A stretch of 64,000 bases of DNA from Sthenelais limicola (lineage: Eukaryota; Annelida; Polychaeta; Phyllodocida; Sigalionidae): NCBI GenBank assembly GCA_942159475.1, contig OW804095.1:88363740-88427739 (forward strand), written 5' to 3'. Shown here piece after piece: positions 8,431 through 55,828 of the stretch. The position numbers and the translations under genes are program-made. Position 1 is the stretch's first letter, and each line of letters opens with the position of its first letter. Under the pieces are notes generated by a model. The model was given only the letters and a program-made list of their open reading frames with translations. It ran no database searches and was not told the DNA's origin.

Positions 8431-9191
8431 TTAAATATTAATTAATATTTTCACCAAATAAAAGGTGTTATGATCCTTATGTCGAGGACTATCATGTACA
8501 AAGTGGACATAACTGTCACTTGGCTTGAGAAACAGAAGGTCATCCGGGCTAGCAGGCACAGCAGAGAAATGTAGCTGTAGTAAGCTATATAAGCAGTAGT
8601 GAGAGTCCGCGACTTTAGCCACAGGAATTCTCAACACCCTTTCTCTGTGCCTCAAAGTCTTGGTAGAGGCCACATTAACCACCAAGCCATCAGACGACCA
8701 AGATATATCACGACGACACAGGAGGTGATCAGCATTGGGGCCGCCAGGTAAGTAGTTGCATTTCCTCAGGAGGGTTCTGAATCCGAAGAGGACCGCCGTC
8801 CAACAGACTATGCTCAGTGAATCCTTAGGCATAACACTGTAAATGTCCTTTAAATTCTGAATGCTCAATCCGATTTTTGGAGCTGATACACAACCAAGAG
8901 TATTCTTCAGGCCAGAGAGCACAATTTTAGTGACAAAGTAAGAGCGGAAGTCGATATCATGACCATGGTACTTGTGGAGCATATTTATAGCAGAGAGATA
9001 ATTGTTGATTGTCACATATTTCTTGGACTCACCCAGGTGTACCAAAAATCTAAGGACTGTCAGTACATCAGCTGGCAGAGGTTCCACCCCCATAGTATAA
9101 CAAAAAGTGATGAAGGACTTCCATTGGGAGTTGAGAGAGTGTTAACAGACCAAGCTCTGGACATGACCGAAGACAGCTTGGCGTCCAACAT
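8431..9191 (-). pseudogene. DIRS tyrosine recombinase, 3'-truncated
   Basis: A YR-family recombinase would insert the circular cDNA of the element. The natural start is the ATG at 9191, which overlaps the RNase H frame; the DIRS copy 2 protein begins the same way (MLD). Two extra bases in a CT run near 9137 shift the frame, so only the part from about 9135 to 8431 is open. The N-terminal SAM-like core-binding part is complete. The first catalytic Arg is in the segment LLRKCNYLP. The frame stops at 8431 before the H-x2-R box and the nucleophilic Tyr, which are missing from the genome here. This copy cannot make an active enzyme. Confidence 0.85.
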
Positions 9192-11433
9192 CGATATTTG
9201 CTCTGCAACATAAGGAGAAGTTGGTTAACTCACTCAATGAATTAGTATGGTGGATCCGAGACAAAAAATCAGCAGTGATGTTCTCGGTACCAGGTAGGTA
9301 GTGCATAGCGATGTACACATTATAAGCAACACATATCCAGAATATTTCACGGATAACCACCATACAAGATTTATTGGAGCTAACACCTTTGGACAACATG
9401 AACACCACTTGGGTGTTATCTGTGTACCCGTGAAGGAGCTCTCCCTTGTACATGGGAGCGAAGCGAAGGAGAGCTTGCCACACAGCGATAAGTTCCAGTA
9501 AATTGATGTGACTGTCAGTAGCTTCCACCAACGGGACATACATGTTGGCCCAGTGGCAGTGAAGCGGGTCTAACAGACTCAGACCCCTTGGGAGGAGATC
9601 ACAGTAAAAAAATCCGGCAACCCAGTCAGCACCACTGACAGCACCATAGCCATTAAGGCTCGCATCCGTGACAAATCAGGGATCCAGATTACCTTTGGAC
9701 ATGATGACAGTTTCCATGCCATTGAAGCGAGTCAGACACCGCTCCCACCATGACAAGTCGAGTCTGAAGTCGTCAGTCAGTTGAATCCTGGGGTTTTCTT
9801 GTCTAAGGCCCCTGAGAAGATCTATGATCCTATGGGTGAAAGTGCGAGCCCCCTTAACCACCTTGGCACAGTGGCATAGAAGACCGCAGAGTCGCTGTAT
9901 TTGACGCTTTGAGGCTTTCTTCCTGTCCTTGAAGAACAGAAGTTCAGATCTCACCTTCTCCATTTTGGCTGTGGGGAGAGATAAGGTCATATCAATTGAG
10001 TTAAACAGGAGACCAAGATATTTAATGCTGGTTGCCGGGGACACACACTTCTTCCAACTCACTTTAAAACCCAGTGCACCTAGTAGATTGATGAGAGCAG
10101 ACTGGGCAATCTGGCATTGGGAGAAGTCATCACCAAACACGATGAGGTCATCAAGGTACACAGCCAGTCTGTCAAACCCTCTCCTCACCATGCACCTGAG
10201 GACAAAGTTAGTCACCTGAGTAAACACAAACGGGGCGCATCGGATACCAAAGCTCAGCCGAGTATCAAAAAGAGGTACCTTCGTTCCCTCAAAGTTCCAC
10301 GAAATACTCTGGCGAGTCCAGTCTATAGGATTAATATTGATTGAGCGGTATGCCGCAGCAATGTCAACCGATGCCATATAGGACCCCTTTGTCATTAATG
10401 CAGAGACTTCATCAATTGACGTGTAGGAGAATTTCATTGCAGTCTGATCCATAAAGTTGTTGATGGAAAGGCCTATTGGCCGCTTACAGTCCGTTATAGG
10501 TCGGAAAGTGCCATCACCCTTGGGGATTGCACCAAGGGCGTGGACACAATTGGGAACACAGTCAGCATAGATAAATTTCCCTTCACTCATCTCCTGTTTA
10601 ATCAATTCAGAGACAAATTCATGAGCTTCATTCTGCTGCACCGAAGCATAATTGTCACAAAAATAGGGGGGAACAATAGCATCATCATCAACAATATTAA
10701 ACCCCTGTGAAATACCTTGCAATAAGTAGTCTCTCAACCAGATATCACTTTCGTGCCTCAACTCATGAACCCATACAGAGTAATTCATTTGTGACGACAA
10801 GCCACCAATAGAGTGAGAATCATTCACACGTACCCAAACAGAAGCATCATTAATACAATCACAATGTGTAATATCAACATAGCCACGGTGGGGAATAGTA
10901 TCAGTGTGGAACATAACATCAGTACAATCATTAGAAATGGTACAGGTACATAGTTCAACATCATCGACAAACCCAGAATTAGTTACATTATCAATTACTG
11001 CATCCTCTGGGGACGAGCAAGCATCAATAGGTTCAACATAGTTATCTACAGAGGTGACATCAGTCAAAACGTAAGAAACCGGAACACATGAGTTATTGAC
11101 ATGACTAAGTTCAATGGGGAGCGGAGTGTCACACACAAAATACAGGTCAATTTCAGAGGAATAATCACTTTCACAGTCTATTGAATCGACATCGGGTAAC
11201 AGAACAAGACAATCATCATACAAGTCTATACCAGAGGTGGAAGTAGATCCCAGTCCATCCGCAGGGGGTAAGCTAGGAGAAGAACTGTTGTTGTTGTCAT
11301 TGTTTCCCTTGGAAGGTGAGGGATGGGTGCCGCCATGTAGGATGACGTCATTACAAATAGTCTCATGTGAGACCATGTCCAAAGTCTCCTGTGAGCTCTC
11401 GGGAGGCACGAGAAAACAACATTGGCGGCCCAT
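9142..11433 (-). pseudogene. DIRS reverse transcriptase-RNase H
   Basis: One frame of 763 codons starts at the ATG at 11433, with a single internal TGA at 9676-9678. Residues 1 to about 220 are acidic, Ser/Asp-rich and unassigned. The RT core follows: first catalytic Asp at about residue 357 (MASVDIAAAY) and the YLDD box at residues 426-429 (AVYLDDLIVFG). After the TGA the same frame continues straight into RNase H: TDASLNGYGA carries the first Asp, LLELIAVWQ the Glu and YTDNTQ the next Asp. The lack of any other damage on either side of the TGA points to one recent point mutation; programmed readthrough is the alternative. Domain content is certain, functionality is not. Confidence 0.92.
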
Positions 11434-11466
11434 CTCACATAGTCACTCCTTCTTGCTAGTTGTAGG

Positions 11467-25129: not shown

Positions 25130-25621
25130 CTAGAAAAATAAATCTGCCGCTACTTTTTGCCACGGACCCCACATAGTTTTGTCCTTCATGAAGGTTTCCT
25201 TCTGTTGGCTGACCCTATGTTTCAGACATATGGGACAGTTCAAAACCTGGTTTTCAATATCACTGTTCATGCGGGGCCAATACATAACCTCCCTGGCCAT
25301 CCTGCGCAGTTTTTCTACCCCCAAGTGGCCCGTGTGTAAGCGTTTCAACATGTCTTGTCGCATACTGACCGGCATAACGATGCAATCTCCCTTAAACAAT
25401 ATGCCATTTATTATGGCCAGCACGTCTTTGAATGTAGCATAGGCTGGACAAGCCCCAGTCTTCCATCCTTCCAGTATACAAATTTTAACTGGACACAACA
25501 TTTCATCATTGTCTGTTTCCCTTGCGATTTTCTCCAGCTGTTCATGTAAGGCTGGGATACTAGAATAAACCATGTTTTCTTGGGCTGTCATTTCATCCCC
25601 GATACAATACCTCTTGTTCAC
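25130..25621 (-). pseudogene. Gypsy integrase, N-terminal zinc domain only
   Basis: The H-x3-H ... C-x2-C zinc domain is complete (HTGHLGVEKLRR, later NCPICLKHR), with the usual spacing of about 30 residues. The frame stops at WQKVAADLFF, at the position where the catalytic core would begin, so D, D and E are absent. This is where the element is truncated. Confidence 0.88.
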
Positions 25622-25631
25622 CTAACCTACT

Positions 25632-25995
25632 TTAGCATGGTAGCATGGTAGCCAGGTACAGAAATTTACCTGGGGACCATTGCAGTTGGACATCGTACAT
25701 TTGCAGTTCTAACATTAGTCTCTCTAGCCTTGGTGACATGTCATGCATCGGTTTCTGTGATAGCAGAACCAAAGGTTTGTGGTCTGTCTCCAGAATTACA
25801 TTTCTGAGCCCGTAAATAAAATTGAGGACATTTTTACAACCGTAAACCAAACCCAGTGCTTCTTTTTCAATTTGTGCATACCTGCATTCACTCTGGTTTA
25901 ATGATCTAGCCCCATACGCTACAGGCTTCCAGCTCTCTCCATGGAGCTGGAGTAACACCGCCCCGATTTCGTCATGAGAAGCATCCGTGGAGACC
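25632..25995 (-). pseudogene. Gypsy RNase H
   Basis: Family blocks are clear: TDASHDEIGAVLLQ (first Asp), VAYGARSLNQSE, RYAQIEKEALGLVYG (Glu) and LETDHKPLVLL (Asp). A stop at 25632 separates it from the integrase frame. It would remove the RNA template during reverse transcription. Confidence 0.9.
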
Positions 25996-26121
25996 TTAGT
26001 TTGTTTATTGACATCTTAATATGCTAGTACCAGTTTTGTTGATAATACCTGTTTTATGCTATTCCACTCTTTCTGGTGAGCCTCCGTCCATAACCATTCA
26101 ACCTTATTACATAATAGTTTC

Positions 26122-27079
26122 CTAATATTTGTACAGTTTGCTGCTAAATGTGGTACAAAACGTTCTACAAAATTCACGCAAACCTAACACCCTCTGTGCA
26201 TCTGATGGACAAACTCCTTCACTATCCATGGACTCCCCCAAGAATGTTACCTTTGTTTTACAATCTTTGACTGCTGCCAGCCTCACATCATGTTCCTCCT
26301 TGGTCAAGCCCCAAACCAAGATATCATCAATTATATGTTCTAACTCCTTGGCAATCTTAAAAAATATATGCCATGCTTCTGCGAAATATCTCTGGAGCAC
26401 TACATTATCCATACGGCAATCATTTGTACAAACATCTTCCAAATGGAGTGGAAAAAGTAGTACATTTCTGAGATTCCTCACTTATTTTCACCTGCCAAAA
26501 TGCCTGAGTGGCATCAAGTTTGGTAAAAACTTTAGTCCCATGTAATTCACCAAAAATTTCATCTCGAGTTGGCAGCTGGAAATGCTTTCTTTTGATTGCT
26601 TTGTTTAAATCCTTTGGATCTAAACATACCCTTAGTTACCCATTTGGCTTTATCACTACCACCATAGAGTTTACCCACTCAGTTTGTTCAGTGACCATTT
26701 CAATGACCCCTAATTGTTCCATACGCTGTAATTCCTTCTGTAAATCATCTCTAATTGCCAATGGAATGCGTCTAGGAGGATATACCACAGGCCTGGCCTC
26801 TTCAATAAGTTTTATATCATATACAACTGGTATAGCTGAGAGCTCTGTCTTACCATGCTCAGGCACAAAACATTGATCCATTTTGTGTACAGTTTTTTCC
26901 TCCTTGATATTTTGTACACCAACACCTGTACATGAGACCTCATTTATTTCATTGTTATCAAATACCCTCTCGATTAAACCTAATCTCCCGCAGGTGCCTC
27001 CACCCAGCAAACTGGATCCCTCACATACAATGAAAACCACCGGAGCCCTTTCCTGAAACACCTTGCCTCTTAGTATCAT
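26122..27079 (-). pseudogene. Gypsy reverse transcriptase
   Basis: The N-terminal part (27079-26636) ends in VVVIKPNG, then an in-frame TAA, then the same frame continues with LRVCLDPKDLN. The first catalytic Asp lies in FTKLDATQAFWQV (about 26510). After a frame change the second box reads HIIDDILVWG (normally Y[IV]DD), near 26320. Interrupted by at least one stop and two frameshifts. Confidence 0.88.
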
Positions 27080-27104
27080 CCCACCTTTGACAGGAATCTC
27101 ATGG

Positions 27105-27510
27105 TTAATCAGTTAATCTAATGTTAACCTTTCTTAGTGCTGGAGCATTTCTTAACCCTACATAATCTTGCATGTTTAACAAATTCGCCCCTGCTCCTGT
27201 ATCCAATTTTACAGTAATCAATGAGTCATTTATTTTCAAGTAATGTACCCATTTTGATTGTGATGACTTACTCAGGCGTATCTCTTTCAGTGCAGTGCTT
27301 TTGTTTACTGCGCTAATGATGAACGTGTTGATGGCGTTGACCTCCTGCTTGTCTGCTTCCTCCACAATGTCTGCCCTCACCGCAGCCACTTTACTGTAAC
27401 ATTGTTTCTCAAAGTGACCTCTTGACTTGCATCTTGGGCATATCTTGTCCCAGGCTGGGCACGCCGTTCTTAGATGCTTTGTGCCGCACCTTTTGCAGTC
27501 AATGGTCTGC
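27105..27510 (-). pseudogene. Gypsy zinc knuckles and aspartic protease
   Basis: Two zinc knuckles come first: CKRCGTKHLRTAC (about 27460-27497) and the canonical C-x2-C-x4-H-x4-C of CPRCKSRGHFEKQC (about 27414-27455). In the same frame follows the protease, with active-site box VKLDTGAGANLL near 27195. A frameshift near 27105 separates it from the RT frame. Gag and protease are thus joined in one frame here. Confidence 0.85.
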
Positions 27511-29655
27511 TTCCTCCTGGCTCCTCCTTGGCTTGGGCCTTGGTTGGTGACAGCATTATGATGTGTTCTGTCATGATGACTGTGAGTCCTATTGACAGCA
27601 TCAACGATTGAGACTGAAGTCCCACCATCTCCATCATTCTTGCCTCCATTTGGCTGACACTTTTAGCTGATCTGGGCTTTGTTGCACAATGAATTCCCAC
27701 GAACGTGCAGCCAAAGAGTTAAATCGTGATAGATCTATGGTTAAGAATGACCAGGATTAGAGACGATCAGGCTCTGTTGCACAAGCACCCCTCCTAACTC
27801 TACACACTCATGCACATTCTCAAGTTGCACACTCTTGCACATACCTATACATGCAATACGGTAATGACCAACAGGTAACCAGTAGACGCAAGAGGAATTC
27901 CTTTTTATGACATCAGAATGCCAGGTGTTTTCCAACCCCATTCTTTATTTGTATAAATTTCCCCTTGAATAGAGGTCCCTGACTGCTGCTTTTGTTTCTA
28001 ATAATAGGTCTTTGGTCGAGTTTGGGTGATCTTGGGTCCAATCTCATGCAACTATTAATTATGCCCTCCCACCTTTCCACCCTCCCTTCCTCTGAAGACT
28101 AATACAGATTACCAACGAGTAGCTGTTGCAAAACAAATTCGTGGGTTCACGTTTGTGCTTATTCGTGAGGAGATATATACCAAATACTGCTTGAAAATCG
28201 TGTTGGACAAGTCAAACTTAGGTGCACCTCTAAGGGTGTCCTAAGTCTGTTCCTAGCCATAATGAACACATATATAAATAATTGATTCATTGATACCCCC
28301 TCATAAATGAATAAAAACAATATTGTAAGTGTTTTCACGGTGATTCTCCATTTTTTAAAACATTTAGCTATTCGTGGGTATAATGCCTGCTCTTTGCTAT
28401 TCACTCCTGTTCGTTCGTCTCTGTTCCCTTGGCCTAATGTGCTAATGCTTTTTTACCTTTCCCTCCCCTGTAACACACATGCAAAAACATTCTTTTACAA
28501 ATCAGGAGATTTTTAGTCAATTAAACTGTTAAGATTAGGAGGAGAGACTGGGGTGATGGTCTGGAAATCCCTGTCCCCCACCCAAAAGCAAAATATTCAA
28601 AATATATTCCAATGATAAGAAGGTCATTTGTTTACAATGGACCACTTGCACCCACTAGTACACGCCAATCACACAATGTCCATCATATAGTGAGTACCTG
28701 TATTGCAAGCCATGCATACGTCATGTGTGTAGGTGATTAGGTGGGTAGGGGTGTGTGTGTGATATATGTGTGTGGGTGTGTATGTGAATTAAATCAATAC
28801 GTAAATCAACATGGTCTATTTCAACCTTTTAACTCCTCAATGTTTCTGCTGGGTCGTTAATTGCCACTAATAATTCTAATAATAGTGCTTGAATTGGCAA
28901 TTCAAACCAACAACACAATTAAACCCACTCTGGTATGTTTATGTTCCTATGAGTTTTCACGAATGTGGACCCACGAATTAGTTGTGCAACATATTCTCGT
29001 ATGTTGGCCAAAGAACGAACGCGATTAGGTAAGATTAAGGAACGAACAAGGCATTTAGACAGTGTACGAACGAACAGCAAAGATTGGGATACGAGCAGCG
29101 TTGTGCAACAAAGCCCTGCACAATCTAACTGCATCTTGCAAGTTTAAGTCCACTTTCCGGAGTAGTCTCTCCCTTAGTGACATATCCCTGATTCCGCTCA
29201 CTACTTTTTGACAAAGACGATCATCCTCCAGTGCTTCCCACTCACATGAGTTTGCCAAATAACACAGATCAGTAAAGTAGTTCTCAAAGCTCTCACAGTC
29301 AGCCTGCTTTCTTTCAAGGAATACATGTCTCCTATGAGATTCTTTAGAGGAGAACAATGCGCCTCAAACTTAGCCATCACTGTTTTGTATTTCTTGTTGT
29401 CCTCGTGCTCTGCATACTCAAATGTTTTGTAAACTTTGGGAGCATCCATGCCCATGCAGTTGAGTAAGATCCTGAGCAGGCATTTGTTCTTGCCTTCCGT
29501 GATGTCTACTGCATTGAAATAGCTCTCTAGCTGTTCTTCAAACAACTCCCAATTATTTGCAACATTTCCAGAGATGAGATTCAACCTTTGGGGTGGGTTT
29601 ATACCATTGATGACTGCTGATCTGCACTTTTCCGCACTTTTCTTGTCTTCTTTTC
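27511..29655 (-). pseudogene. Gypsy Gag, split by a 1.44-kb insertion
   Basis: The N-terminal part is open from about 29652, without an ATG in frame, and reaches 29119. It shows the usual Gag pattern WELFEEQLESYF and, after one frameshift near 29345, SFENYFTDLCYL, LRERLLRK and DAVRLCR. The C-terminal part resumes at 27671 with QMEARMMEM. Between them lies the element 27675-29115. Without the insertion and one CTG copy the two halves join in the same frame, which identifies the exact insertion point. Confidence 0.88.
27675..29115. mobile_element. PIF/Harbinger-like non-autonomous element
   Basis: Perfect 15-bp inverted ends, GGCTTTGTTGCACAA, at 27675-27689 and 29101-29115. Both flanks are CTG (27672-27674 and 29116-29118), a 3-bp target duplication. 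TIRs of this kind with a 3-bp duplication suggest the PIF/Harbinger group; other groups are not excluded. It encodes no transposase. Another TIR-like string (GGCTCTGTTGCACAAG) begins at 27770, and an inverted pair at about 28125 and 28970 suggests internal nesting. Its left 100 bp also occur at 17829-17848 plus 21726-21803. Confidence 0.8.
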
Positions 29656-49931: not shown

Positions 49932-49958
49932 CATACATACATACATACATACATATAT
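49932..49958. repeat. (CATA)n microsatellite
   Basis: A short CATA run that exactly fills the gap between the LTR and the left TIR of the next element. Confidence 0.9.
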
Positions 49959-49993
49959 GAGATGCGCTCCATCAAAAAGAGTCCCATGTCGGC
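49959..49993 (+). repeat. Left terminal inverted repeat
   Basis: Starts GAGATGCGCTCC and contains GAGTCCCATGTCGGC. Pairs with 54490-54524. Confidence 0.85.
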
Positions 49994-50289
49994 AACTTTC
50001 ATTTTGAGATATAGGGCTCCAAAGGTGGTATAGGACTTTTTCGGTCGAAAACTTTTTTTCCCGTAATATTAATCTTTATTATGTTTTTTTTGAGACTGGA
50101 AAATATTTTGTACCAAAAACAATAATTTACGCTTCATAACGGCCGGTAAACATTTTCCTAACATGGTTGGATGGGTTTAAACAAAGGAGCCGAAGGCTAT
50201 TTTTCACTAAATTCACTGGTACGCCGTGGACATTTGATCGTAGGGTACCCCAGCACATTTGGTATCCTCGGAAAGCCGCGAATCTCCTC

Positions 50290-50475
50290 TAGCCAATGGG
50301 ATTCTTCCCTTTTGAATCGCCGCGTAAGTAAACCAATCACAGAGCTCTCTCCAAGTGCATTCGGCGTAAACAATGGTTGCTAGGGTCGTCAAGGGAGCCC
50401 ACGTGGGGTCGATACAGCCCTGTGATTGGTCCAGCCGCTCCGAAAGATCAACTTCCGGCTGACGCCATCTTCTAG
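50290..50475 (+). promoter_or_regulatory. TATA-less promoter with CCAAT, ETS and YY1-type sites
   Basis: CCAAT at 50293 and 50333, inverted CCAAT (ATTGG) at 50425, an ETS-type ACTTCCGG at 50451-50458 and a YY1-type GCCATCTT at 50464-50471. This is the composition of a broadly active housekeeping promoter. The motifs are spaced normally and lie 110-300 bp before the ATG. There is no TATA box. Transcription probably starts near 50470. Confidence 0.55.
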
Positions 50476-50587
50476 CGTGGTCTTGGATTTGAATCGAAGC
50501 GACCAGTTATTCCTCGATTCCAGACGATACAAGACGTGTTTTACTCTCCAACAAAGTTTTAAATGGACCAAGGTTTATTATTTAAAC

Positions 50588-53500
50588 ATGGAAGCTGAGG
50601 CCACCGTCGCAGAAGCTCTTAATGGCATCGCTCGAGCCAATTTGGGAGGTGTTGTCGACAACGCCGAATGGCGTAACCTCATCGAAGAGTATTTTGTGTT
50701 CAACGAGGAAACAGAGACGGTGGAATCTGACTCAGATGGAGAACCAGACGTCCCTGATCAGCCTGAAACTCCGGAGACGAACGAAGAAGAAGTTGAGGAA
50801 GCATCAGAACCTATTCTTATTATTGATCACATGCAGGCAGTCGTGGACAAGGAACGGGAAAAGTGCTCCACGTTTCGGTAAGTGTTGGTGCTCTGCAGCC
50901 ATCTTTTCTATCGTGTGTGTTGACATGCTGGGGGACGCGATCTGAAAACTATGCTATGTACATCCCTGGAAATCATTCCAAATCTATAATCCAATGCTGT
51001 TATATGTGCTAGATACCTTGTGGGTATATTTAGAGGTTCTAAAATTTAATTGGTGTATGTTTTAAGTCGCATGGTGTTGTTCGTGCGTGGGGAGTTTAAG
51101 GCCCTCGAGATCTGGGGAGTAGCTATTTACTTGGGACGTCTGAGATTCCTTACTCGTCTCGTGTGGAATGTAGGGTTAAAAATACATTGTTTGTTTGTGT
51201 CATTATGGGCAAATTAAAATCTAGGATTTTGTCCATTTCAGATGTAACTGCCGATTGTTTAACGGCGGGCCATGCATAGACCAGTTCACTGTGGAACAGC
51301 GCATCTCTCATCGGTCGGAACATGACCAAATCGATCGAGGTAATTTCAAAGTAATGTTTTTCTCTATTGCCTCATTGCCCATACATGCCTGTATAATACT
51401 CATTCAGTATTTTAATCAGTATTTTAAGCTGTAGCTTGTTAAATAATGAGGACACGTGCTACCCAATTACATAGGATAACTAATTACGTAGGATAACTGT
51501 AGGGACTCAGACTAAGATTGGTGTCGGTGATATTAGTCAGTCACAAATTCATTTTTACATTATTGTTATACTGTCGTTTCAGATGAGCTCGACATTGGTT
51601 AAGCGAGGCAACACTCTTTGGTGTTTTCAATACTGTTACTGACAACAGTGATCGATGCAGTCCAACCAAGAAGGGGCGCCAGTGGAAGGGAGAGAGAAAA
51701 CACCCAAAGAGCCACTACAGGATGCATAACAAGCCTATTTGCAAAGCTACCTTTAAATTCCTTTACAAGTGAGTGTTATCATGAATCTTGTGGTGCCCAT
51801 TAATACTGAACATTAGATAGCTATTCATAATAACATGATTATTTGCTAAGAATCAATATTTTGGTATTGTCATTTTAAGATCCTGCATTATGTTCAATTT
51901 CTTCCTTTGTCAACGATTAAATTATTATTAATTATTTTTTCTATTTCTTTTCTCTCCCTTCACTTCTAGGATTAACCAAAACTTGCTGACAGTTTTGCTA
52001 AAATCCTTCGCTGAGGATGGTCTGGTCACTCGTTCACGACAGGGTGGTGGTCACCGTGCTGTGAGGTCTTTGCCAATAGATGACCTGAAGAACACTATCA
52101 ACTTCATCACATCTTATGCCGAAATACATGCTCTTGTCTTGCCAGGCAGAGTATCTTCTCACCACAGAGACGACATCTTAATTCTCCCCTGCCGTTCTAC
52201 AAAAGCTGAAGTTCATCGTCTTTACACACAAGCCATGCAAGAGACTGGCAATAGGGCTGTTGCCTACTCCACTTTTGGTCATTTATGGCGCAAGTATCTT
52301 CCTAAAATAGTCACAAGTCGTCCCATGACAGACCTCTGCTGGGAGTGCCAGCGTAATAACAGAGACATTTCCTGTAGTAGTAATTTACCTGATGTTGTGA
52401 AAGCTGCCAAGTTAAAGAAACAGCAGAAACATTTAGACACTGTAACCGCCGAAAGAACTCTTTATCAGAAATTTTGTGCTGATGCAAAAGAAGCGTACAG
52501 AGACAATGGTGAACCCCTCCTTGGCAAACATGCCCCTTGCTCATGTGACATTCGAGTACATCTCAGTTTTGACTTTGCACAACAAGTGCATTTACCTTCT
52601 TACCCGATGCAACCAGGTCCCCTTTATTTTCTCACCCCGAGGAAGGTAGGCCTGTTCGGTATTTGCATGGAAGGAATGCCTAGACAAGTTAACTACCTTA
52701 TAGATGAGAGCCATTGCACCAGTAAGGGGTCAAATGCAGTTATTTCTTATCTGAATCATTACTTTGAAAACTATGGTCTGGGGGAGAACGATTTAGATCT
52801 TAACTGTGACAATTGTAGTGGCCAGAACAAGAACCGGTATGTTTTGGCCTATTTGATGTGGCGTGTCCTTACTGGAAGGCACAGGTCTATTACACTTAAC
52901 TTTTTGATTACTGGGCACACTAAGTTTGCCCCCGACTGGTGCTTTGGTCTCTTGAAAAAACAATTTCGTCGGGACAACGTTTCTTCTCTTCAGCAATTAA
53001 AAGACAGTGTGCAGCGCAGTACGCCAGGGGGGGTCAACCAGGCCCAACTTGTAGGTGATGAAAGGGGTACTGTTTTTGTTCCATTGTACGACTGGCAGGC
53101 ATTCCTGTCACCTTTCTCCAAATCTTTTCCAGGTATCAAAGGGTATCATCATTTTGAATTTTCTAGTGACAAACCTGGTGTTATTTCTTTCAGGCCATTT
53201 GTAGGCCCTGAAGATAGTGGTACTTTTAAAATGCTTACTGTTGATGTGGGTGATGTCCCTCAGGACAACCCACCCATTGTACCTTCTCCTGGACTGTCTG
53301 CATACAGACAGTGGTATCTTTTTAATTCTATTCGTGATTTTTGTACCGAAGAAACCAAAGACATTATGTGCCCCAAACCAACTGTACCTGAAGAAGGGCC
53401 AGGGAGGGGGGGGGGATGGCTACATTGTACAGGCTCCTGCAGTCGCCCCAGTAAGAGGTAGAGGGAGGGGAAGTGGAAGGGCTAGAGGAAGAGGGAGGGG

Positions 53501-53850
53501 TAGAGGAAGGGGAAGGGGAAGGGGAAGGGACAGGGAATCTTCTTCTGATGAATCATTAGAATTAGGTGGTGATGAATCTTCTGAGGAGGAGGAGGAGGAG
53601 GAACCTCAAGAGGAACCTCAAGCTAGGGGTAGGGGTAGGGGTAGGGGTAGGGGTAGGGGTAGGGGTAGGGGTAGAGGAACAGTAAGGGGAAGGGGCAGGG
53701 TAAGGGAATCTTCAGAATCTTCTTCGGATGGGGAGGTTGCACCTCCTCCAGCAAAGAGAGGTAGGGGGAGGGGAAGGGGAAATGTTGAGCAACGCCGGCC
53801 AGGGAGGGGTAAAGGGAGGGGTAGGGGTAGGGGTAGGGGTAGGGGCTGAC
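50588..53850 (+). CDS. DUF7869-type putative transposase with Arg-Gly-rich tail (4 exons)
   Basis: Exons: 50588-50877 (ATG; ends at a GTAAGT donor), 51242-51339, 51583-51768 and 51970-53850. All junctions are GT-AG and phases fit except in exon 3. Exon 1 is acidic. Exon 2 has [15 protein letters not shown], a Cys motif I know from a large family of invertebrate proteins. Exon 4 carries the conserved core: LCWEC, then [22 protein letters not shown] and [12 protein letters not shown]. Their Asp residues (about D197, D276 and D318 counted from 51983) suit an RNase H-fold active site; that role is inference. The last 145 residues are mostly RG repeats with two Ser/Glu patches. Two lesions: one base is missing in exon 3 near 51597, and the G10 run at 53406-53415 shifts the frame. 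If sequencing errors, the gene is intact; otherwise this copy is broken. Confidence 0.75.
53406..53848 (+). repeat. Purine-rich minisatellite encoding RG repeats
   Basis: Repeated AGGGGT/AGGGGA units, including a nearly pure (GGGGTA)n run at about 53632-53672. In the protein frame they encode Arg-Gly dipeptides. The run is G-rich on the coding strand and could form G-quadruplexes. Confidence 0.9.
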
Positions 53851-54004
53851 TGCTATTTTATTGATTTTATTACTGATTTTATTACTGGTGAATACTGTTG
53901 TACATTTTGTTTTGTTAGAATGAATAGGTGTGTTATCATGTATATATTGCAAGCACTGCACCGAAGAATTTTGTACAATATTATTATACTCGTGTTAACA
54001 GGGT

Positions 54005-54010
54005 AATAAA
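54005..54010 (+). terminator. Poly(A) signal
   Basis: AATAAA about 155 bp after the stop of the RG frame, inside the TIRs, so the element carries its own 3' end signal. Confidence 0.6.
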
Positions 54011-54489
54011 ATAAAAAATATTAAATGAAATGCACTGATTTTTTTATATATTGTGGTCCTACTAGTCTATAATACCTGCCCCAAATCTGAGAAAAATCCA
54101 ATCATATGAACTGGTCATTTTGCATGACAACGCGTCCGACATAAATCCCACAAAAGTCTCCTAGAAATGTATTTTGCCCAAATTTCACCCAATTTTCATC
54201 GCGCGATAAAATGATAAGTTACTAAGTAAATGAACTGAATTTGGTATATGTTATGGCTATGGCAGTTAGTAAAGTGTGTCCCAAATTTCATAGAAATCGC
54301 TTGATAAGGTCACTCGCCGAACTTTGACAGGCTGTATCTCAGTTTCCGGCTCCTCCAGTAACCGCGTCCCTTAAATACTCACCGCAACCATAGAATTATA
54401 CCCAATAGGCCTAAAATTAAGCTCTATACATCATTGGAAACCTCTTTCCTGCTGCTTACCCATCCAATAGCTAACTCCAAAATCGATTT

Positions 54490-54524
54490 GGCCGACATGG
54501 GACTCATTTTGATGGAGCGAGTCA
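54490..54524 (-). repeat. Right terminal inverted repeat
   Basis: Reverse complement starts GTGACTCGCTCC and contains GAGTCCCATGTCGGC. Pairs with 49959-49993. Confidence 0.85.
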
Positions 54525-55828
54525 CATATATAATAGATTACTCTATTAAAGCTGCATTCTCAAGTGTTACTATTGAATGGTTCTTTTGAATTTACATTCA
54601 GATTAGTTCCCAAACTCACTATTATTCATTCTTTATTTAATGAAAACTTCAATAAATATCTGAATTCAATGATTTTCGAACTGATTGGGGACAAATGGGG
54701 ACCAGATAAATACCGTTTCGTTACTGCTAAGGTAACAGGGCGATAGTACCGTATGTATAGTATAGCCCCACCACTGTAGGCCTGTAAGCATGCTGTTCAT
54801 ATACTGTGTCTCTACATTGGTCAAATTTTGGCGAACTCAAATCAGACTGAAATGAATATTTCAACTCGAATATTTATCTTCAACATAATGAAAGAGAACC
54901 ATACTCTTTGGATAGGGTGGGGCAAGATATTTGTGATCTAAATAAGGGAAATTTGAGATAGGGGACAGGTGGGAGGGCAACTTTAAATGGATATAATTAT
55001 GTAGGCCTACTGAAATATAATTTCCGTATCAACCTCTGTATGTTAGAGTAAATTAGTTTACCTCCCGCATATATATTGTTTGCCTCAGCTCTCATTAGTT
55101 CCATAGTATGTAAGTGTAAACATAACATACAGGTGTAGTGTTCTTTGCTAAAAACCCAGTTCACTTAGCATAGAATAAAAGCCAAAGAATGTTTCCTCAA
55201 CGTTTCTCTGTTTATTCAACTCAAGAGGCAAGCAGAAACTGTCCAAAGCTTGTTCTCGGACCACTAAACCAATCCAGGTACACAGTACCACATGGTATAA
55301 GTATACAAATGGAAGTACAAATTATCAAAAGATTTAATATCATTTACAATAGCACAGGCACTAAGGTCCCAGTCCCTTATACATTAAGGTTAACCAATAA
55401 CACCGTAAAATGTTGCCAGAGAACAATAAGAGGTAGAAGTGCGCATGACTAGACTCAGCAATATTATAGAGAAACAAGCCCACAGTGGTAGTTCCACCTG
55501 GTGCTTTGGAGAAGAAGCGACCATTACCACTAGACAGGGATAAATAAATCTTTGTCATAGATAAAATGTGCTTCATTTTGATGGTAGTATATTTTACTTG
55601 CATTACAATACCTTGAGCTCCATGAGATAAACAACAGTCGTCTTGGAGTGTTAGAGCTGGACATCGTAAAACAAAATGCTCATTTAATTAGTTGGTGAGA
55701 GAATGTTTTAGTCTTTTCACGTATTACCCGGCAATAAGGTTTAATGGTTTTAATGATAAGCTTGGTGTACCAAGAAGGAACATAGCGAGTGTCTAAATGA
55801 TTACACAGGTTCATGTAACATTATATGT
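54525..55828. other. No gene recognised
   Basis: AT-rich DNA. The small frames at 54564-54746 and 55189-55603 have no motif and overlap on both strands. Confidence 0.45.

Follow-up and report, generated by a model that had tools for sequence, protein, structure and literature searches.

The window analysed here, a stretch of 64,000 nucleotides from the annelid Sthenelais limicola, carries a member of what is almost certainly a dispersed DNA transposon family, in which the sole gene found has a DDD transposase as its predicted product; this enzyme likely cuts at the terminal inverted repeats (TIRs) and pastes into AWWT sequences. The family is read as a DNA transposon because of its TIRs, the linkage of these TIRs to the gene, a 4-bp AWWT target-site duplication (TSD), empty sites, low divergence among copies, and open genes in copies elsewhere in the genome. 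This kind of element is already known; the assignment of DUF7869 and the young transposon family are new.

The whole transposon is 4567 bp long (49959 to 54525, + strand) and has type II ends, which were set by comparison with 20 other copies. Its features are as follows:

49955 to 49958, no strand: left TSD, ATAT (AWWT), extendable to 6 bp (ATATAT) at this AT-rich site
49959 to 49993, + strand: 5' TIR, a 7-bp tip (GAGATGC) and a 28-bp core
50588 to 50877, + strand: exon 1, acidic, begins with ATG; GT/AG borders common to 21 of 21 copies
51242 to 51339, + strand: exon 2, with a CxC...C motif; GT/AG borders in 21 of 21 copies
51583 to 51768, + strand: exon 3, frame broken in the window copy; GT/AG borders in 21 of 21 copies
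51970 to 53849, + strand: exon 4, predicted catalytic core and RG-rich tail; frame broken near its end in the window copy
52571 to 52573, + strand: Asp 201 of exon 4 (SFDFAQ), predicted first catalytic Asp
52652 to 53179, + strand: DUF7869 match (PF25273) in exon 4, Pfam search, E 4.8e-21
52808 to 52810, + strand: Asp 280 of exon 4 (in a motif of 10 residues), predicted second catalytic Asp
52934 to 52936, + strand: Asp 322 of exon 4 (GHTKFAPDW), predicted third catalytic Asp
54005 to 54010, + strand: AATAAA, possible poly(A) signal
54491 to 54525, - strand: 3' TIR, a 28-bp core and a 7-bp tip (GTGACTC)
54526 to 54529, no strand: right TSD, ATAT (AWWT)

The 28-bp TIR core, GCTCCATCAAAA[A/T]GAGTCCCATGTCGGC, is present at 49966-49993 (+) and 54491-54518 (-). 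The two cores are identical at 27 of 28 positions, and 100 shuffles gave no match. The outermost 7 bases of the 35-bp inverted ends, which the sequence-only reading had called near-identical, differ more (GAGATGC vs GTGACTC, alike at 4 of 7 positions). That reading had also placed the element at 49959 to 54524. The left end stands, while the right end, by comparison with other copies, lies one base further on. From the window alone, the duplication could be taken as 8 bp (ACATATAT); this reading was abandoned because the other copies place the start of the tip at G and give a duplication of 4 bp. A search of the window against Rfam produced no match.

Only one gene is found between the TIRs, a DUF7869 gene of four predicted exons. 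DUF7869 is the only domain found by Pfam in the window protein, exon 1 alone has no Pfam match, and in alignment A3 conservation of the exon 2 cysteines is 90% or more. The Pfam match and the splice borders common to all copies bear out the earlier description of a DUF7869-type gene with introns, and the AATAAA does lie inside the TIRs, where it may act as a poly(A) signal. However, the window copy has an interrupted frame, which had been missed: one break lies in exon 3 and a second in a G-run towards the end of exon 4. With these two breaks, the copy is non-autonomous as sequenced and would require protein from another copy in order to move. A frame open from ATG to stop is present in 11 of the 21 copies, with the stop at codon 802-808 (801-807 aa). 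The tail of the protein, encoded by 53439-53846, is Arg-Gly-rich with acidic blocks; it is also present in the relatives P0001-P0004 and absent from the bacterial frames L031 and L029.

Within the host genome (1.13 Gb) the TIR core has 342 exact matches, and the reversed pattern has none. Among the 100 of these matches that were listed, there are 22 inward-facing TIR pairs (including that of the window) about 4.5 kb apart. The copies compared (n=21) are the window copy and 20 of the 21 other pairs; the pair at C2 114292574 was left out. As in DDD/E DNA transposons, the TIRs lie at the exact ends of dispersed copies. Type I tips, which start with GTGAGGC and end with ACGTCTC, are present in 17 copies, and type II tips, which start with GAGATGC and end with GAGTCAC, are present in the window copy, L012, and L025; L017 is a type II relative with an altered tip. 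Most of the unpaired TIR ends (L054-L073) carry the tip GAGATCC, a third type that is probably older. Around L025 (C2 84264077-84275565), part of the element is apparently arrayed in tandem.

AWWT is present on both sides of 20 of the 21 copies (ATAT in 14, ATTT in 3, AAAT in 2, and AATT in 1); L017 has no target duplication and is kept as a miss in all counts. The duplications of the window copy and L020, 2 of the 20 copies with AWWT, can be read as 6 bp (ATATAT). At 20 further ends (unpaired hits on contig C1), AWWT is directly outside the tip in 17, compared with 3.8% of window positions, and 3 are without it. The duplication is thus constant in length and type, as had been anticipated for a mobile element and as is seen with DDD/E transposons.

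Empty sites are available for three insertions (L009, L014, and L016): when the two flanks of each are joined, they align over the insertion point with sister copies of the repeat that was interrupted, at 71-93% identity. A single AWWT and no element is seen at the junction in 9 of 11 such alignments, again as for DDD/E DNA transposons; in the other 2 the tetramer differs. These sites are paralogous sister repeats and not allelic haplotypes, so the earlier expectation of empty sites is realized, but not in related haplotypes as proposed. No such alignment was obtained for the remaining 18 insertion sites among the sequences compared. Over about 4.1 kb, the 17 type I copies show 0-16 substitutions, with five copies free of any difference; gaps and the RG-coding tract are excluded from this count, and because the copies were picked via exact TIR cores, the sample leans to young copies. 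Four unpaired hits with flanks (L003-L006) extend into diverged copies, with 88-94% similarity across about 1.55 kb.

A DUF7869 profile search of the host genome yields 422 candidates, of which 150 were scored and listed above the cut-off; the profile has no match in any of 14 control genomes. On contigs C1 and C2, a listed DUF7869 domain is found no more than 5 kb from 86 of 98 exact TIR hits, compared with 0.22% of random places (n=20,000); conversely, 66 of the 84 listed domains have an exact TIR at most 5 kb away. The other 12 of 98 TIR hits have no listed domain within that distance, only 150 of the 422 candidates having been scored. Other copies with the same TIRs around the gene, which the sequence-only reading had proposed as a check, are therefore abundant, and neither of the opposite outcomes that it had named, TIRs never near the gene or gene copies at conserved syntenic positions with no TIRs, is seen in the host genome.

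The genome also contains a second family, represented by four loci (L074-L077), with another DUF7869 gene and a different TIR, GTGAC[C/T]GAA...TAGTACTTATGTCGCAC. AWWT duplications are clear at L075 (AAAT) and L076 (ATAT). L074 has ATAT too, within an AT run that makes the exact end ambiguous, and L077 has only the 3' part in common with L074-L076. This combination of another TIR with AWWT extends the pattern past one family.

The structure model of exon 4 contains an RNase H-like core (residues about 157-355) that resembles retroviral integrases, Mos1, and IstA, in line with the RNase H-fold enzyme suggested at the outset. In the model, the three conserved Asp residues are located at the expected strands and helix of this predicted fold. 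A Foldseek search with the model places TnsB on top, weakly (TM 0.22), with Argonaute, NurA, and terminase next below. Although these structural neighbours (the integrases, Mos1, IstA, and, by Foldseek, TnsB) share an RNase H-like catalytic core with the model, identity is about 10%, and a sequence search of the PDB found no relative up to E 1. In the proposed mechanism, the DUF7869 protein would bind the inverted repeats; D201, D280, and D322 (exon-4 numbering) would coordinate metal ions and so serve in catalysis; strand transfer would be staggered by 4 bp; and movement would be by cut-and-paste rather than replicative.

Over a thousand DUF7869 relatives are present in protein databases, and bacteria, fishes, and sea animals are all represented. 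Among prokaryote contigs, a scan gives 12 DUF7869 loci, including L031 (Desulfocicer vacuolatum DSM 3385, 148-kb contig). In both bacterial loci tested, L031 and L029, Pfam confirms DUF7869 (E 2.7e-18), and the two are 36-37% identical to exon 4. Inverted repeats of 36-61 bp bracket 7 of the 12 loci, each with a single DUF7869 frame: L031 (43 bp, 100% identity), L029 (39 bp, 87%), L030 (42 bp, 88%), L034 (42 bp, 98%), L033 (40 bp), L036 (61 bp), and L039 (36 bp; found with one cut of the flanks and missed with another). No bracketing repeat was found at L032, L035, L037, L038, or L040; the frame of L032 begins at a contig end, and those of L038 and L040 are short. When the element end is placed, by a convention of our own, where the repeat has its first G, 13 of the 14 flanking tetramers fit AWWT by eye; the tetramers on the two sides are equal in 3 of the 7 elements (L030, L033, and L039) and unequal in 4. 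Bacterial loci share the domain and, at 7 of 12, the bracketing repeats with the window element, but differ from it in having one exon, a length of 2.0-2.7 kb, G-rich TIR tips, and no RG tail. The right flanks of L029 and L036, though these loci are distantly related, both start with ATTTGTAAT past the inverted repeat.

Among 389 genomes from the class to which the L031 genome belongs, a match is present in 11, and several of these are incomplete. With the L031 protein as query, 551 relatives are recovered among 7996 candidates scored, and the name "transposase" is on none of the 120 of these that were listed. Many bacterial-type DUF7869 proteins (within P0121-P0240) come from contigs of about 2.0-2.5 kb. 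Most bracketed bacterial elements are of nearly that size (2.0-2.3 kb), a pattern that assemblies interrupted at repeated copies might leave. One of these proteins, P0138, carries the source name chaperonin, which is probably mistaken. Plasmids and phages contain no relative of the bacterial protein, and viral contigs contain no TIR match and 28 stretches that fit the protein pattern, none encoding a relative. In a tree of 45 proteins, 20 eukaryote-labelled and 11 bacteria-labelled rows lie on opposite sides of one branch (support 88/94), which argues against a recent transfer of the window element's family from bacteria.

A Sola superfamily with a Sola2 group was reportedly described by Bao et al. 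in 2009. By superfamily, the window element probably belongs to this Sola2 group, with which it was compared by description only. The placement follows from the AWWT duplications (ATAT, AAAT, ATTT) described for Sola2 in section 11 of PMC3627910 and from the 4-bp TSD, DDD transposase, and bacteria-to-metazoan range given for Sola in a passage of PMC10741241. A 4-bp, AT-rich AWWT duplication is found both in the window family (20/21) and in the second family; on the window side, the DDD enzyme is predicted from the three conserved Asp residues and the modelled RNase H-like fold; and the element's size and TIR lengths are inside the 2-9 kb and 11-1124 bp reported for Sola in the same passage of PMC10741241. 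Amoeban Sola2 elements, however, have TIRs of 12-21 bp, compared with about 35 bp in the window element, and an enzyme of 888 aa, compared with 801-807 aa in the window family. A search for such an enzyme among proteins of at least about 886 aa returned only two relatives, one a fish protein and one unnamed; this speaks somewhat against the Sola2 placement, although the amoeban enzyme is possibly absent from the database. The superfamilies piggyBac, Kolobok, and Sola3, which target TTAA, were rejected because the duplications here are ATAT, ATTT, AAAT, and AATT. Also rejected were hAT and P, with a duplication of ~8 bp (in a passage of PMC3706591) as opposed to 4 bp, and Tc1/mariner, with a 2-bp TA duplication (in a passage of PMC10741241) as opposed to 4-bp AWWT duplications that include AAAT, ATTT, and AATT.

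Alternatively, though with distinctly lower probability, DUF7869 may represent its own DDD transposase superfamily of bacteria and animals, which would use the same mechanism and be Sola2-like only in its AWWT target. DUF7869 is not named in the literature searched, the long proteins include no relative like the 888-aa amoeban enzyme, and neither the window protein nor L029 or L031 matches an NCBIfam model above cut-off (L031 has one match, far below cut-off). However, AWWT duplications are already described for Sola2 (PMC3627910, section 11), and the cited passage of PMC10741241 already describes Sola as DDD, with a 4-bp TSD and an occurrence that extends from bacteria to metazoans, which favors placement in Sola2. 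It is similarly doubtful that DUF7869 constitutes an unrecognised superfamily that has an AWWT target and is, in this host, probably still jumping. The literature searched, its broader part judged from titles and abstracts, holds no assignment of DUF7869 as a predicted transposase; AWWT occurs together with transposon in PMC3627910 only, PMC2836005 and PMC5718144 have no match for Sola, and the string GQNKN retrieves seemingly unrelated papers only, judged from the listing.

It is very improbable that the DUF7869 protein is a passenger and that an unrelated transposase moves the element in trans. Many copies would need such help, since the frame is broken in the window copy and in 10 of 21 copies overall. 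However, the DUF7869 gene is the only one found in the element, the modelled protein has the fold of DDE enzymes, DUF7869 lies between inverted repeats in two animal families with different TIRs, and seven bacterial elements have a single DUF7869 frame inside inverted repeats. TIR linkage, duplications, empty sites, and the predicted fold instead support the protein as the element's own transposase, as first claimed from the letters of the window, with a catalytic role that is predicted. There is next to no chance that the copies arose by plain duplication of a host gene located by accident between inverted repeats: three direct TIR hits 3483 bp apart (C2 84264077-84271043) look like part of the element repeated in tandem, and element sequence is present in the left flank of L025, but base-exact ends, differing flanks, short duplications, and empty sites contradict it.

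Assignment as a transposase gives a testable function to DUF7869, a Pfam family of unknown function. Genes called "uncharacterized protein" in marine invertebrate and fish gene sets become recognisable as transposons, and hypothetical proteins of bacteria that match no NCBIfam model above cut-off are now tied to flanking inverted repeats. The very young full-length copies with open genes are candidates for an activity assay.

Other mobile sequences may be present in the window. A reverse transcriptase frame at 8431-11442 (-) (RVT_1, E 2.9e-16) adjoins a frame that has no Pfam match and resembles a tyrosine recombinase by eye; this region is possibly a DIRS-like retroelement. The region 25130-29653 (-), where the frames are broken and one of them contains an integrase zinc-binding domain (E 1.9e-15), likely represents a decayed LTR retroelement.
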